Source: Nitrosopumilus adriaticus
GTDB taxonomy: Archaea; Thermoproteota; Nitrososphaeria; Nitrososphaerales; Nitrosopumilaceae
Direction of reading: 5' to 3'
DNA: 64,000 bases
NCBI RefSeq assembly: GCF_000956175.1
Contig: NZ_CP011070.1
Coordinates: 186,001 to 250,000 of the forward strand
Shown here: piece by piece, positions 29,930 through 60,978 of the stretch
Layout of the letters: each line of letters opens with the position of its first letter
Position numbering within the stretch: position 1 is the stretch's first letter
The notes under the pieces: generated by a model
What the model saw: only the letters and a program-made list of their open reading frames with translations
Told to the model about the DNA's origin: nothing
Database searches by the model: none
Program-made: the position numbers and the translations under genes

Positions 29930-30091
29930 ATGTCTGTTGAAATTACATGTGGTAAATGTGGGGAAAAGATCACAAATATGAAAATGCTAAAATCTCTAAA
30001 AGATGTTATGAATCCAACTAATGGAAAATGTCCATCATGTGGACAGAAACTTTCGACATCAGAGTTCTCACTTGATGTTCAAGAAAAATGA
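29930..30091 (+). CDS. Small zinc-ribbon protein
   Basis: A 53-residue ORF carries CGKC near the N-terminus and CPSCG at residues 34-38, a two-knuckle zinc ribbon separated by a helical linker. It ends SEFSLDVQEK. The protein is too short to assign. A hairpin terminator begins within its last codons. Confidence 0.65.
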   Translation: MSVEITCGKCGEKITNMKMLKSLKDVMNPTNGKCPSCGQKLSTSEFSLDVQEK

Positions 30092-30128
30092 TCTAAAAAG
30101 ATCTAAGACGATCATTTTTTTAGATTTT
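30084..30128 (+). terminator. Hairpin terminator
   Basis: AAAAATGATC (30084-30093) pairs perfectly with GATCATTTTT (30110-30119), and the right arm runs into a long T-tract. Confidence 0.6.
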
Positions 30129-30247
30129 TTTAAAAAAATAGCCATCCGAGTTTCAAATTATTTATCTGCAAATTATAAAACTGATCCAAAATGTTCAGAA
30201 ATGATCTCGACACAAGTCTTATTTACTCCTTAGTCAAGAAAAAAAAC

Positions 30248-32419
30248 ATGAAAATGAGTGATGAGGATTTAGAATTAGATATTGATGTTGGCTTAGATGA
30301 AGACGATGACGATGATTTGGAATTAGAATCTGATCTGGACTCTGACTCTTCACCAAAGAGAAGCGGTATTTTACAATCTACATCAAAACGTGTCAGAATG
30401 ATCTTCTCTGTAATGGCCAGTCCAAACAGAATTGATATTCTTAGAATCTTAAATTCTAAAGGACCATTAACTTATTCAGAGTTAAAATCTCTGGCAGGAT
30501 TCAAGTCCAAAAAAGAGAGTGGAAAATTTGCATACCACTTGAGAAAATTACTAAGACAATCACTTGTTGCATTAAACAAATCTGAAAGACGATACACCAT
30601 TACAAATCTTGGAAAACTTGTTTTGAGTTTGGCAAGGCAAATCGAAGAAAGATCAATTATTGAAAGTGGAAAAATGTATGTTAGAACATCACATCAATCA
30701 ATTGAGGAATTTAATTCACACAAAATTATTCAATCACTGGTTCGTGAAGGAAGTCTCCCACTGGAGCTTGCACAAAAAATAACTGAAGAGGTTGAAAATA
30801 GAATTTACAAATATCAGACTACCTACCTTACAGGCTCACTTATCAGAGAAATGGTAAATTCTGTTCTCCTTGAGCACGGTCATGAGGAATACAGGAACAA
30901 ACTTGCACGCCTAGGCCTGCCTGTGTATGATGTACAGGAGATGATCTCTAATTTAGATAATGTAGATAACGGTGCTGAAGGGCTTCTCTTTAACACAGGA
31001 CAAAAAGTATTTGCTGAGCATTTACTTACAAACATCCTGCCAAAAGATGTAGCAGACTCTCATCTTTCTGGAGACTTGCATATCACGAATCCTGGAATTT
31101 GGTCTATGATTCCTGATACAATATTTGTAAACGTAAAAGAATTAATCGAAGATGGAATTAATCTTGGCGGAAAATATCTTGATGTATCAAGAATTCCTGC
31201 ATCAAAACAACTTGACGAGATTACAAGCTCATTATCAATTGTTATAGCTCTTCTTTCAAAAGAGGCTTCACAAGAAGTTGTAATTGATGGTTTGGTGCAA
31301 TTATTCACAAAACATTCAAAGTCACTTCCAGAACTAGAACAAAAACTCACAGATGCATTTGCAACAGCATCTACAACTGCCAAATATAACAAAACAAGTA
31401 CAAAGGTTTCAATTAGATTGCAATTGGGAACTGATACAAAAATAATTAATTCAATTATTAATGCATACAAAAATTACACAAAGATTACACCTATTCCAAA
31501 AATTGGTTTGATAATTGATGCTGAGAAGGGAAAAATCACTGATGTTTCAGAATCAATAGCTGAAATAATTTCTATTGGCGGACACGTAATGTTTGCAAAG
31601 GGTCAAACTTCTAGCTCTGGTGTTACAAACGGATCTACAAAAATTACAGCTCCACTTTCAATAAACTTGGAATCCGTTTCAATCAATCTTCCAAGACTTG
31701 CATTTGAATCAAACAAAGATGAAACTTACTTTAGAGCAAGACTTGCATTGTTAATGAAACCTGCATTAGCATCTATGGCATTAAGAAAGAAAGAGATCTC
31801 AGATCTTACAAGAAGAGGACTGAATCCAATCCTTGCAAAGAATACGCAATACATGCAAAGAAGTTCTGTTTCACTTGTTGTAAATCTGGTAGGACTCAAA
31901 GAATCTGTCTTTAACATACTTGGATTCCAAGATAACAAAGAAGGACGTGATATTCTTCATAAGGTGATTGAAACCGCAGTTGATGTTGGAGCCAAAAAAG
32001 GCAAAGAGCTAGGTGATACTGTTGCAATCTGTATGACTGAAACTGAAGCATCCATCCGTTTTGCTACTCTGGATGGAGAAAAATATGGCAAAAATTCTGC
32101 CTTAAATTCAATGGAGGGTGACTCTTATTCCCAAGGAATAGTCATTAATGCCTCTGAAATTGCCAATCTTACTAACAAAAGTGAGCCTATAGCAGAGGCA
32201 AACAAGCTCTCAAAAATTCTAAGTGGGGGATTACTGGTCACTTTACAAATTGATAGTGATGCAAAGGTTGCAGATATCAAAAAAGCACTAGAGAAAACAT
32301 CGTCCCTTACAACTTCTTTCAAGCCTGTAAGAAAAATTGCAATATGTGGTGAATGTGGATTCAAGGATGAGCCATTTGAGGACAAGTGTCCAAAGTGCAA
32401 GTCTCCATATGTTGTCTGA
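30248..32419 (+). CDS. HTH-ATP-cone-NrdD-like pseudoenzyme, putative ribonucleotide reductase regulator
   Basis: The protein has 723 residues. It has an Asp/Glu-rich N-terminus (1-40), an ArsR-like winged helix (about 45-130: MASPNRIDILRILNSKGPLT...YTITNLGKLVL), an ATP-cone nucleotide-binding domain (about 140-230), then a body resembling anaerobic ribonucleotide reductase NrdD (SINLPRLAFESNKDE, NLVGLKESVF, TETEASIRFATLD). It ends with the NrdD-type four-Cys zinc ribbon but stops right there, without the glycyl-radical loop. Only one cysteine lies outside the ribbon, so the radical-transfer cysteines are missing. It lies 213 bp upstream of the class II reductase. I infer a dNTP- or ATP-sensing transcription regulator. 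The start is supported by a TATA box at 30218-30225. Confidence 0.8.
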   Translation: MKMSDEDLELDIDVGLDEDDDDDLELESDLDSDSSPKRSGILQSTSKRVRMIFSVMASPNRIDILRILNSKGPLTYSELKSLAGFKSKKESGKFAYHLRKLLRQSLVALNKSERRYTITNLGKLVLSLARQIEERSIIESGKMYVRTSHQSIEEFNSHKIIQSLVREGSLPLELAQKITEEVENRIYKYQTTYLTGSLIREMVNSVLLEHGHEEYRNKLARLGLPVYDVQEMISNLDNVDNGAEGLLFNTGQKVFAEHLLTNILPKDVADSHLSGDLHITNPGIWSMIPDTIFVNVKELIEDGINLGGKYLDVSRIPASKQLDEITSSLSIVIALLSKEASQEVVIDGLVQLFTKHSKSLPELEQKLTDAFATASTTAKYNKTSTKVSIRLQLGTDTKIINSIINAYKNYTKITPIPKIGLIIDAEKGKITDVSESIAEIISIGGHVMFAKGQTSSSGVTNGSTKITAPLSINLESVSINLPRLAFESNKDETYFRARLALLMKPALASMALRKKEISDLTRRGLNPILAKNTQYMQRSSVSLVVNLVGLKESVFNILGFQDNKEGRDILHKVIETAVDVGAKKGKELGDTVAICMTETEASIRFATLDGEKYGKNSALNSMEGDSYSQGIVINASEIANLTNKSEPIAEANKLSKILSGGLLVTLQIDSDAKVADIKKALEKTSSLTTSFKPVRKIAICGECGFKDEPFEDKCPKCKSPYVV

Positions 32420-32632
32420 AATTCGTAAATGAAAAACTAGTTACGATCATTTTTCAAATCTTTTAGATCAGAATCCGATGTGGCGATCTTCGTAGTTACT
32501 GTGAAAGTTATGCCAGTATGAAATTCATAGTAGCGGTGTTAAAAAAATTGACTCATTAACGTGACGAGATCAAAACTTTTCGAGCACACAAGTTATATCC
32601 ACATTGTTTCTAAGCATGGAGGGGAGATTATA
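32420..32632. promoter_or_regulatory. Leader and promoter region of nrdJ
   Basis: A TATA-like TTATATCC (32593-32600) would start transcription near 32620, just before the Shine-Dalgarno site. I looked for a cobalamin riboswitch box and did not find one. Short imperfect inverted repeats occur between 32462 and 32545, but none is convincing. Confidence 0.35.
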
Positions 32633-35284
32633 ATGGACAATTCACAAATTGAAAATACGATCAGTGAGATCCGTAAGCGCAGTGGCGCAGTAACGGCTTT
32701 CAATCAAAATAAAATTTCAAATGCCATTTTTCGGGCATTGGCCGCCACCTCTAAAGCCGATCGTGGTATGGCAGATCAACTAGCAGAAAATGTAGTAAAC
32801 AAACTAGTTGAACAAGGATTTACAAGCAGTAGGACGCCTACTGTTGAGGATATCCAGGATATTGTAGAATCTACTTTAATTGATAGTGGAAATAGCGATA
32901 TTGCAAAAGCTTACATCGTTTACAGACATGAGCGAAGAAAATTAAGGGAAGAGAAAATGAAGGTCTTGAATCTAAAGACGCTTGATCCTGTTTCCAAAAA
33001 GTTTGATTTGAATTGTCTTAGAGTTCTAGCATCAAGATATCTATTCAGAAATTCAAAAAATGAAATTATTGAATCACCAACTCAAATGTTTGAGCGTGTT
33101 GCAATTCTGGTAGGAATCGGTGATATTCTATATGATTCACAAGTATTTGATAAATCCGGAAATATCAAACAAGATGTAGAAGAAGCAAACTCTTATCTTG
33201 AAAAACTAGATGCCTTTGATTATAAATTCAAAGTAGGAAATTATTTCTTCAACAAGTGGCATTTTAGATCTTTAATCAACCACTACGTGACTCTTGCAAA
33301 CAAAGGTCAAATGAAGGTGAGCTTCAAAGATCTTTTGACATTACTTGCAGGAAAGAAGCTTGATAGTTATGCAGACAAAATCACTGAATACTTTGATTTG
33401 ATGGTTGCACAAGACTTTCTACCAAATTCACCAACAATGATGAATGCAGGAGGAAGACTAGGCCAACTATCTGCATGCTTTGTACTTGGAATGGAAGATG
33501 GAATGGAGCAAATCATGAAATCAACCTCTGATGCAGCATTAATCTTCAAGTCAGGTGGCGGTGTAGGAATAAACTATTCTGATCTTCGTGAAGAAGGCGA
33601 TATTGTCGCATCCACTTCAGGAGTTGCATCAGGACCAGTATCCTTCATGAATATCATCAATACTGTGACTGAGGTAGTCAAACAAGGTGGAAAAAGACGA
33701 GGTGCAAACATGGGAATTATTGAAGCATGGCATCCAGATGTTGAAAAATTCATCACAAACAAAACAGAACCAGGCATTTTAGAGAACTTTAACGTCAGTG
33801 TTGGTATCTGGGAAGACTTTTGGCATGCACTGGTAAATACTTCTGATGGCAACTATGTTTTACGTAGTCCACGTGATAAAAAACCCGTAAAAGAAATCAA
33901 TGCACACCAGCTAATTGATCTGATTGCACTTTCTGCATGGAAGAGCGCAGAACCAGGTTTGATCTTCTTTGATCAAATCAACAAATACAATGTATTTGCA
34001 AAAGCAAGAAAAGCACCACTAAGGGCAACAAACCCATGTGGTGAACAAAGTCTCTATCCATACGAGTCATGCAATCTAGGTTCTATCAATTTGGTAAATC
34101 TTGTAAAGAGACAAGCCGATGGAACTTATGAATTTGATTGGCAAAGATATGAAGAAACAATACGAAAGACAACACGATTCTTAGATAACATCATTGATGT
34201 CAACACATATCCAGTTCCAGAAATTAATGTAGCATCAAAAGAATCTAGACGTATTGGACTTGGAGTGATGGGAGTAGCTGATCTCTTGTACAAACTAAAG
34301 ATCCCATACAATTCCCAAGAAGGATATGAACTACAATCAAAACTATCTGAAGCCCTTACGTACTATTCAATGGAGGAAAGTGTAGCACTTGCTAAATCTC
34401 GTGGTGAATTCCCGCTATGTTCTAAAACAGAATATCCAGAGGGTAAGATTCCTATTTCAGGATACTATGAGAAACCAAAATCAACCCATTCTTATGAATG
34501 GGATCCACTGATTGATAAAATCAAAAAACATGGAATCCGAAATGTCTTGACTACAACTGTAGCTCCAACTGGAACACTCTCAATGATTGCAGACTGTTCA
34601 AACGGAATGGAGCCTGCATTTGCTCTTGTATTTGAGAAGAGAGTAACTGTTGGAAGATTCTTCTATACTAACAAGATTCTAGAAGAAGCTCTCAAAGAAG
34701 CTGGTCTTTACAATGATGAAATTCTTGAAAAGATTGCAGACAACTATGGTTCATTGAAAGGATTAGATGAAATTCCTCAATGGATGCAGGATGTCTTTGT
34801 TACAGCAATGGATATACACTGGGCTGATCACCTTATGGCTCAAGGTGTATGGCAAGACTGGATTGGAAATGCAATTGCAAAAACAATCAACATGCCATAT
34901 GATGTAACAGTAGAAGATGTAAAATCTGCATATCTGCTTGCACATGAAATAGGACTAAAAGGAATGACTGTTTATCGTGACGGTTCCAGACACAAACAAG
35001 TCCTTCACATGACAAGTGAGAATGCAACAAAGATCTTTGAGGTATCACCAAGTCCATACATGACTGCGTTTGTGACTGAAAATATCACAAATCCTTACAT
35101 CAAATCCCAAGTCAATGCATCACTTGCATTAAAAGTTCATGACGAAGAAATCGCAATGGAGCCTCTAAAACATGAAGAGGTTTCAGAGGATCGTCTATGT
35201 CCAACATGTAAAAATGCCCTAGTCTTTGTAGAAGGTTGCAGTATTTGCATTGAATGTGGATACAGTGGTTGTACTTCTGGATAG
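32633..35284 (+). CDS. nrdJ: Class II (adenosylcobalamin-dependent) ribonucleotide reductase
   Basis: The protein has 883 residues. An N-terminal ATP-cone (about 10-100) is followed by the reductase barrel, with the conserved PNSPTMMNAG, LSACFVLGMED and NPCGEQ motifs, PTGTLSMIADCS, and a C-terminal Cys-rich tail (CPTC...CSICIECGYSGC) that regenerates the active site. It makes deoxyribonucleotides using B12, which Thaumarchaeota synthesise. A strong Shine-Dalgarno GGAGGGG about 8 nt upstream fixes the start at 32633; the frame opens 24 codons earlier without such support. The preceding NrdD-like protein may control its expression. Confidence 0.93.
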   Translation: MDNSQIENTISEIRKRSGAVTAFNQNKISNAIFRALAATSKADRGMADQLAENVVNKLVEQGFTSSRTPTVEDIQDIVESTLIDSGNSDIAKAYIVYRHERRKLREEKMKVLNLKTLDPVSKKFDLNCLRVLASRYLFRNSKNEIIESPTQMFERVAILVGIGDILYDSQVFDKSGNIKQDVEEANSYLEKLDAFDYKFKVGNYFFNKWHFRSLINHYVTLANKGQMKVSFKDLLTLLAGKKLDSYADKITEYFDLMVAQDFLPNSPTMMNAGGRLGQLSACFVLGMEDGMEQIMKSTSDAALIFKSGGGVGINYSDLREEGDIVASTSGVASGPVSFMNIINTVTEVVKQGGKRRGANMGIIEAWHPDVEKFITNKTEPGILENFNVSVGIWEDFWHALVNTSDGNYVLRSPRDKKPVKEINAHQLIDLIALSAWKSAEPGLIFFDQINKYNVFAKARKAPLRATNPCGEQSLYPYESCNLGSINLVNLVKRQADGTYEFDWQRYEETIRKTTRFLDNIIDVNTYPVPEINVASKESRRIGLGVMGVADLLYKLKIPYNSQEGYELQSKLSEALTYYSMEESVALAKSRGEFPLCSKTEYPEGKIPISGYYEKPKSTHSYEWDPLIDKIKKHGIRNVLTTTVAPTGTLSMIADCSNGMEPAFALVFEKRVTVGRFFYTNKILEEALKEAGLYNDEILEKIADNYGSLKGLDEIPQWMQDVFVTAMDIHWADHLMAQGVWQDWIGNAIAKTINMPYDVTVEDVKSAYLLAHEIGLKGMTVYRDGSRHKQVLHMTSENATKIFEVSPSPYMTAFVTENITNPYIKSQVNASLALKVHDEEIAMEPLKHEEVSEDRLCPTCKNALVFVEGCSICIECGYSGCTSG

Positions 35285-59654: not shown

Positions 59655-60978
59655 TTTAAGAAATTATATTTCTCAAATTAAAAAGATCAACGATCTAAAA
59701 ACTGTAAAAACAAAGGTTTCAACAAAATTTGAGATTGCAGGGATCACTGCTAAAGTTGATGGCTCATACGCTGTTTTATTTGAAAATATTAAAGAAAGTA
59801 ATTTCCAATTAGTTTCCAATTTAGTCGGAACCAGAAAAAGATTTGCTTTGGCAGTAGGAGGAACTGAAAATAATATTCATGAAAAAATTATTTCAGCAAT
59901 TAAAAAAGCAAAAAAGCCAAAAATTACTGGTTCAGGAAAATTCATGGAAAACAAGTCAAAAAATCTACTTTCCATGCCTATAGTAACACATTTTGAAAAA
60001 GAATCTGGTCCTTTTATCACATCTTCAGTAGCATATGCTAAAAATCCTGAAACTGGTAAACAAAATTCTTCATTCCATAGATTAATGCCAATTGACAAAA
60101 CCCATTTTTCTATTCGAATGGTTGAAGGGCGTCATCTTCATAGATGTTTTGTTGATGCAAAAGAACATGGAGAAGATCTCAAAATTGCAATTACTGTAGG
60201 AGTTCATCCAGCAATTTCTATTGCAGGTGCATATCAAGCTGAATGGGGAAAAGATGAGATTGATATTGCAAATTCGCTTTTAGGAGGAAAACTAACTTTG
60301 ACAAATCTCCCTTTTTCAGGATTGAATGTTCCCTCAGGTTCAGAAATTGTAATGGAAGGAAAAATTCTTCGTGATAAAACTCATCCTGAATGGATGGTTG
60401 AAATGCTTCAAACATATGATCATAAAAGATCTCAACCTGTTTTTGAACTTGAAAATCTTTTCTTTAGAAATAATCCTATTTTCCATGATGTTCTTTCAGG
60501 ATATTCTGAACATAGATTGCTTATGGGAATGCCAATTGAATCAAAGTTAAATGGTGAACTGAAAAAAGCATTTCCTCAAACACTACAAGTCTCTATGACT
60601 AATGGTGGATGTAATTGGTTACATGCAGTTGTACAAATCAAAAAGAAAAGTGATTCTGAACCTAAAAAAATAATTAAAAAAACATTTGAATCACATCGTT
60701 CGTTAAAACAAGTAACTGTAGTTGATGAAGATATTGATCCAAATAGTGCAGAATCAGTAGAATATGCAATGGCTACAAGATTTCAGGCTGACAAAGATCT
60801 GATAATTCTTAAAAATGTGCGTGGCTCTAGTCTTGATCCTTCAAGTGATCAAAAGAAATTACAAACTGCTAAAATGGGAATTGATGCAACACGTTCCCTA
60901 TCTAAACGTCCAGAAGGTTTTGAGTTAGCTAAAATCCCAAAAATTGATAAAATCAATCTAAAAAAATATATCAAATAA
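59647..60978 (+). CDS. ubiD: UbiD-family prenyl-FMN-dependent decarboxylase
   Basis: The protein has 443 residues. Landmarks are FHRLMPIDKTHFSIRM, HLHRCFVDAKEHG, ITVGVHPAISIAGAYQAEWG, GKLTLTNLPFSGLNVPSGSEIVMEGKI and MTNGGCNWLHAV. UbiD enzymes use prenylated FMN made by UbiX to (de)carboxylate aromatic or unsaturated acids, for example in quinone synthesis. The substrate here is unknown. The ATG at 59647 is preferred to a TTG two codons upstream. Confidence 0.92.
   Translation: MSDLRNYISQIKKINDLKTVKTKVSTKFEIAGITAKVDGSYAVLFENIKESNFQLVSNLVGTRKRFALAVGGTENNIHEKIISAIKKAKKPKITGSGKFMENKSKNLLSMPIVTHFEKESGPFITSSVAYAKNPETGKQNSSFHRLMPIDKTHFSIRMVEGRHLHRCFVDAKEHGEDLKIAITVGVHPAISIAGAYQAEWGKDEIDIANSLLGGKLTLTNLPFSGLNVPSGSEIVMEGKILRDKTHPEWMVEMLQTYDHKRSQPVFELENLFFRNNPIFHDVLSGYSEHRLLMGMPIESKLNGELKKAFPQTLQVSMTNGGCNWLHAVVQIKKKSDSEPKKIIKKTFESHRSLKQVTVVDEDIDPNSAESVEYAMATRFQADKDLIILKNVRGSSLDPSSDQKKLQTAKMGIDATRSLSKRPEGFELAKIPKIDKINLKKYIK

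Follow-up and report, generated by a model that had tools for sequence, protein, structure and literature searches.

NrdR is an ATP-cone repressor of ribonucleotide reductase genes, found in bacteria and some archaea (PMC9110341, PMC12176259), which binds DNA and represses when loaded with dATP/ATP (PMC9110341). The ATP-cone also occurs in reductases themselves, among them the class III enzyme NrdD. In the NrdD of P. copri, the radical initiator Cys416 sits on a loop running through the barrel and a second cysteine (Cys171) on the first strand; Gly711 is the glycyl residue, and the substrate lies under an NxN flap (PMC11226230).

Here we analysed a stretch of 64,000 nucleotides from Nitrosopumilus adriaticus (the window; all positions are numbered within it), which encodes a 723-residue protein with an ATP-cone, a predicted DNA-binding domain and an NrdD-like body. 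Judging from sequence comparison and structure prediction, we propose with a probability of roughly 0.7 that this protein is a class III reductase that lost its catalysis and became a transcription factor of reductase genes.

The locus and the reductases of the genome

As is shown in Table 1, the gene of the 723-residue protein precedes nrdJ, and both genes are present as the first-pass annotation had described them. The nrdJ frame is open from a GTG at 32561, while its conserved start is the ATG at 32633 (MDNSQIEN...), with GGAGGGGAG just before it. The start of the upstream gene lies 26 nt past its conserved promoter-like box, which holds a TATA-like stretch (cttattta), so a leaderless transcript would fit. 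Many Nitrosopumilaceae loci, as far as L036, likewise have an upstream ORF similar to the small zinc-ribbon protein at the 5′ side.

Table 1. Features at the locus, in window positions
Feature	Position	Strand	Basis and remarks
Small zinc-ribbon protein (MSVEITCGKCGEKITNMKMLKSLKDVMNPTNGKCPSCGQKLSTSEFSLDVQEK)	29931-30091	+	directly 5′ of the pseudoenzyme gene
Candidate operator of pseudoenzyme gene	30090..30120	+	three GATC with 10-bp spacing (30090, 30100, 30110), the last in CGATCATTTTT
Promoter-like box CACAAGTCTTATTTA of pseudoenzyme gene	30212..30226	+	conserved; upstream-region comparison
wHTH-ATP-cone-NrdD-like pseudoenzyme gene	30248..32419	+	ORF, 723 aa; Pfam; AlphaFold model
Winged helix, ArsR/MarR-like	30371..30655	+	Pfam DUF7347/HTH_20; fold search
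ATP-cone (nucleotide-sensing domain)	30674..30925	+	Pfam 1.3e-8; conserved residues
C-terminal zinc ribbon C700, C703, C714, C717	32345..32398	+	alignment; protein stops directly after, glycyl-radical loop deleted
Candidate cis element upstream of nrdJ	32431..32495	+	conserved; 26-bp core CGATCATTTTTCAAATCTTTTAGATC at 32444-32469; GATC at 32445, 32466, 32485
Promoter-like box AAGTTATATC of nrdJ	32590..32599	+	genus comparison
nrdJ, adenosylcobalamin-dependent class II ribonucleotide reductase, own ATP-cone	32633..35284	+	ORF; Pfam; equivalog models

NrdJ is the single class I/II large subunit found in the N. adriaticus genome, and no true NrdD passed the cut-off there. The genome holds only two ATP-cones, in the 723-residue protein and in NrdJ, and therefore no NrdR. 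A search across the phylum with PF01228 (Gly_radical) was uninformative for NrdD, because its matches lay in long frames of PFL-like size and its control responded only in E. coli, Bacteroides and Lactococcus. In several genomes nrdJ runs to about 1200-1300 aa with the barrel domain spread over 2.6 kb (G122, G028, G018, G017, G036, G259, G284, G223, G176, G162 and G234), probably owing to inteins, which would then occur in the class II reductase of many archaea, one of them in Nitrosopumilus. Frames of true nrdD reach 1000-2800 aa in G156, G177, G183, G150, G162 and G173, where inteins or fusions are probable.

Domain architecture and predicted fold

The 723-residue protein consists of an acidic tail (residues 1-40), a winged helix (wHTH, about 41-139), an ATP-cone (143-226), an NrdD body (about 240-695) and a zinc ribbon (700-717). 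Pfam placed DUF7347/HTH_20 at 52-126, the ATP-cone at 143-215 and NRDD at 462-719 (E 3.7e-25), all past their cut-offs; the cone (PF03477) scored 35.7 bits against a cut-off of 25.8. In contrast, the NrdD equivalog model scored 82 bits against a cut-off of 326. The recognition helix of the wHTH is SGKFAYHLRKL (residues 91-101). Conserved in the cone across the family are E153, K159, R200, E201, Y215, R216 and G223; in place of the usual KRDG loop the 723-residue protein carries VRTS, a point against the proposed function, though neighbouring true NrdDs are often alike in this. Of 63 diverse members, 61-62 share the three-domain architecture, which is far from chance.

We then modelled the protein with AlphaFold2, using an alignment of 63 family members as input, and obtained a mean pLDDT of 88.2. 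Class III reductases matched the model over the whole body, including the 10-stranded NrdD barrel and the C-terminal zinc ribbon, with P. copri NrdD (8p2s_A) at Z 31.0 (rmsd 2.7 A over 433 residues, 13% identity) and T4 NrdD (1h7b) at Z 30.9. The wHTH alone had a pLDDT of 93.3, and residues 39-143 matched ArsR/SmtB, MarR and HxlR repressors at Z 11-12.7; the best of these were HxlR, SmtB and CzrA (Z up to 12.7), and the matches listed were mostly ArsR/SmtB, MarR or HxlR regulators. The modelled domain has both a recognition helix and a wing, as expected of the ArsR/MarR type, and phmmer of the wHTH against PDB sequences gave no match. The first-pass annotation had read a winged helix, an ATP-cone and an NrdD-like body with a retained zinc ribbon from the letters alone, and had proposed structure prediction against NrdD; the Pfam matches, the four ribbon cysteines and the recovery of the whole NrdD fold all agree with it.

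Loss of the catalytic residues

For the residues required by NrdD, we compared 114 non-redundant relatives bearing the wHTH with 38 true archaeal NrdDs in one alignment. The first-strand cysteine is present in 38/38 true NrdDs and in 0/114 family members, with T291 in its place in the 723-residue protein. The radical cysteine of the finger loop is likewise present in all 38 true NrdDs, whereas only 14 of the 114 members keep it (lost in 100/114; V459 here). The glycyl residue, again found in 38/38 true NrdDs, survives in three members and is lost in 111/114; in the 723-residue protein the position is deleted, the loop R-V/I-x-G-Y is absent, and the C-terminus comes 6 residues past the last zinc-ribbon cysteine. 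The NxN substrate flap is lost in all 114 members, this protein included. No member among the 114 combines the radical cysteine with the glycine, so that the full catalytic set stands at 0/114 against 38/38. The zinc-ribbon cysteines, however, are kept in about 100 of the 114. L053, L062 and 12 other Bathyarchaeia-type members keep the radical cysteine while the first-strand cysteine and the glycine are absent; they may possibly be intermediates of the loss.

We also considered whether another alignment could restore catalysis. The 723-residue protein has only five cysteines, four of which form the zinc ribbon while the fifth (AICMTETEA) lies well after the finger loop, so none of them can serve catalysis. 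The lack of a glycyl-radical loop and of radical-transfer cysteines, claimed by the first-pass annotation, is thus confirmed, and the intact residues that it had named as the finding against it did not appear.

It could still be argued that the protein is an enzyme with altered chemistry, such as a hydrolase of nucleotides or a reductase that draws on another radical, given that the barrel fold and the NrdD core residues N480, P482, G549, E552, D609 and Y627 are kept. However, the thiyl cysteine, the first-strand cysteine, the glycyl loop and the NxN flap are all absent, and the body drifts to 21-37% identity while the wHTH stays at 95%; we regard this explanation as very improbable.

Conservation of the winged helix

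The drift is seen between the 723-residue protein and L041, whose wHTHs are 95% identical, their cones 72%, their middle parts 21% and their C-terminal bodies 37%. For L033 the corresponding values are 100, 98, 56 and 66%. Within the recognition helix, 112-114 of the 114 members retain F94, Y96 and H97. In the genus of L043, which shows no linkage to nrdJ, wHTH identity is 62%, as against 86-100% in linked family neighbours. The regulator-like gene is unlinked from nrdJ in L043 (G141) and also in G037 and G144, and L043 has lost the zinc ribbon. The pattern of conservation indicates that DNA recognition and nucleotide sensing are under stronger selection than the barrel.

Descent and distribution of the family

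A tree of the same 152 proteins (114 members and 38 true NrdDs), built without a bacterial outgroup and with an inferred root, grouped all 38 true NrdDs into one exclusive clade with a support of 1.0, beside member L080; a smaller tree gave 0.999. A phylogeny with true NrdD is what the first-pass annotation had suggested for the body. Eroded glycyl loops persist in members near NrdD, such as L080, which has YYAREITTYKPLDYWS as compared with SRVTGYYQAVSGWN in a true NrdD. The loop is gone in Nitrososphaeria, and the zinc ribbon is gone as well in L071 and L075-L084. Because the true NrdDs form a separate clade and the nearest members bear eroded glycyl loops, we conclude that the family descends from a real NrdD, and we read the sequences as reflecting a single origin followed by stepwise erosion.

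The family was found in 137 of 150 Nitrososphaeria genomes, and in 123 of the 124 of good quality, with a few of the weakest matches being partial. In a phylum-wide sample, 149 of 200 Thermoproteota genomes gave a match, although some of the weaker ones are true NrdDs detected by their cone and body; no match was seen in many other Thermoproteota genomes of good quality. A scan of a genome collection with a profile of five members yielded 80 kept loci, from Bathyarchaeia/Bathyarchaeota, Brockarchaeota, Hecatellales and other Thermoproteota-type records. At G088:C1:1756007-1758072 the regulator gene is in two pieces and looks broken by a frameshift or stop.

Linkage to reductase genes of two classes

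Both proteins could be located in 132 Nitrososphaeria genomes. In 108 of them the regulator-like gene immediately precedes nrdJ in the same orientation; in four (G004, G020, G026 and G029) it is convergent with nrdJ, and in 20 it is unlinked. The tail-to-tail order of G020 and G029 is also that of L045 and L046, where the two genes are a few bases apart. A second scan comprised 63 testable loci, mostly of Bathyarchaeia, in which a reductase match was present or the sequence extended 2 kb or more downstream. Here a true nrdD follows 190-620 nt downstream in 18/63 loci, nrdJ follows in 2/63 past an intervening 1-1.5 kb, and 43/63 show no reductase linkage; in L190, nrdJ begins 159 nt downstream. 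The position of one family beside two reductase classes in separate lineages is the strongest pointer to its function. The placement before nrdJ given in the first-pass annotation therefore holds for 108/132 Nitrososphaeria and turns out to be broader than stated, since in some lineages the partner is nrdD. Conservation without linkage to any reductase, which together with a lack of DNA binding had been named as evidence to the contrary, does occur in the 20 unlinked Nitrososphaeria and in most Bathyarchaeia-type loci, yet the recognition helix is kept.

Pseudoenzymes often regulate their active relatives. The same neighbourhood, with reductases next door and an ATP-cone in both proteins, could therefore reflect an action at the protein level, in which the dead NrdD binds NrdJ (or a true NrdD) and tunes its activity or oligomer state, with the wHTH serving dimerisation or localisation. 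However, conservation is highest in the winged helix, including its recognition helix, and not in the body, one conserved contact with both NrdJ and NrdD is unlikely because they belong to different classes, and the convergent order in four genomes indicates that co-translation is not needed. We consider such protein-level action unlikely.

Candidate operators at the two promoters

The core of the element upstream of nrdJ contains the dyad GATCA-N15-TGATC, whose arms are 20-21 bp apart, that is, two helical turns. In 28 of 30 genomes of the genus, the block 15-80 nt past the stop codon was the best match of its locus, in place. The 26-bp core CGATCATTTTTNAAAANTTTTTGATC, allowing up to 3 mismatches, occurs as one copy each in 33 of 60 Nitrosopumilus genomes, while the reversed control gave 1 match in all; wherever placeable, the core adjoins the regulator gene or nrdJ, except for one 3-mismatch match in G085. 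The shorter CGATCATTTTT is found 3 times in 1.8 Mb, at 30109 upstream of the pseudoenzyme gene, at 32444 upstream of nrdJ, and once in coding sequence. Relative to the window average, GATC is enriched about 6-fold upstream of the pseudoenzyme gene (30 genomes) and about 9-fold after it. Distances between GATC pairs favour helical phase (92 in, 57 out), and a profile of the right half-site built from the nrdJ side reached p < 0.05 upstream of the pseudoenzyme gene in 60% of genomes. Since the genomes are related and hence not independent, and the motif was chosen after looking, these statistics are suggestive of operators at the GATC elements.

The element lies 28 nt past the stop codon and contains T-runs, so it could also be a terminator or an RNA element. 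A terminator scan detected no hairpin at either GATC block, a sigma-70 promoter scan stayed at chance level, and Rfam gave no match over the locus. The element was found in Nitrosopumilus only; in Nitrososphaera, whose wHTH is 94-95% identical, no such element is evident. A further GATC cluster at 60731-60850 was set aside, as it lies in coding sequence. A search for NrdR boxes resembling ACWATATATWGT, with 2 mismatches allowed, returned chance-level matches, and none between 30090 and 32632.

These data also bear on whether nucleotide sensing by the protein serves a wider regulon (replication, cell cycle or nucleotide salvage), in which nrdJ is just one target or its neighbourhood a relic. 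The gene is single-copy and nearly universal in Nitrososphaeria, and many genomes keep it unlinked, as such a regulon would allow. However, every Nitrosopumilus genome with the 26-bp element has one copy of it, which adjoins nrdJ wherever it could be located (bar one 3-mismatch match), and outside the locus CGATCATTTTT falls only within coding sequence. A wider regulon is in our view slightly less likely even than action on the reductase protein.

Proposed function

The first-pass annotation had suggested that an ancient reductase became a nucleotide-sensing regulator of nrdJ. The descent from true NrdD, the lost catalysis, the constrained wHTH, the recurrent reductase link, the cis element and the lack of NrdR all add to this suggestion; its regulatory part is graded as probable, in that the protein probably senses nucleotide levels and controls the adjacent reductase gene. 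In the transcription-factor model, the NrdD body would dimerise, as in true NrdD, and would place the paired winged helices on GATC half-sites separated by two helical turns, both in the nrdJ promoter and in that of its own gene. ATP or dATP would bind the cone, perhaps with a dNTP in the old specificity site, and this binding would shift the spacing of the winged helices, such that high dATP lowers nrdJ expression. We favour repression at high dATP because of the NrdR precedent (PMC9110341); given that the protein is a regulator, this sign is the likelier one, although it is the least certain step.

In a broader form, with odds that we put only a little above even, the proposal is that of a new archaeal transcription-factor family made from a whole anaerobic reductase, which arose once in Thermoproteota, replaces NrdR, senses ATP/dATP with the cone and perhaps the full set of dNTPs with the retained specificity site, and sets the expression of the reductase in use, be it of class II or III. 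If true, a reductase-derived regulator would explain how the dNTP supply is controlled without NrdR in nearly all ammonia-oxidising archaea, one of Earth's most abundant groups of microbes. The family would moreover present a metabolic enzyme that lost catalysis piecemeal (catalytic residues, the glycyl loop and, in some lineages, the zinc ribbon) while becoming the sensor and switch of its own pathway. Binding could be probed directly on the single-copy element that precedes nrdJ.

Comparison with known systems

Across the open full-text literature searched, we found no earlier description of a wHTH-ATP-cone-NrdD protein. The 723-residue protein shares with NrdD (T4 1HK8, T. maritima 4COI, P. 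copri 8P2S) the whole core fold (Z up to 31), an ATP-cone on the N-terminal side, a zinc ribbon at the C-terminus and sequence homology (Pfam NRDD, 3.7e-25). However, it differs from NrdD in lacking the radical cysteine, the first-strand cysteine, the glycyl loop and the NxN flap, in having an extra N-terminal wHTH, and in falling outside the clade of all true NrdDs compared. The fold of residues 39-143 is that of ArsR/SmtB, MarR and HxlR repressors, whereas its effector part is an ATP-cone with an NrdD body, and its best domain models are DUF7347 and HTH_20. WhiA, a homing-endonuclease-related transcription factor (PMC3781837), is a comparable case of an enzyme fold turned transcription factor, but it is bacterial and concerns another enzyme and another pathway.

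With NrdR the protein would share an ATP-cone joined to a predicted DNA-binding domain and a tie to reductase genes, probably including its own promoter. However, NrdR is small and binds palindromic NrdR boxes through an N-terminal zinc ribbon, while the 723-residue protein has an ArsR/MarR-type wHTH and a reductase body of about 500 residues, and no NrdR-like box lies near nrdJ. As the DNA-binding domain differs and the NrdR box is missing, the best reading is that the protein works like NrdR by convergence but is not an NrdR member. We would place it with the ATP-cone regulators that act on reductase genes, and there is a fair case that a reductase converted into a transcription factor is a new kind of its own.
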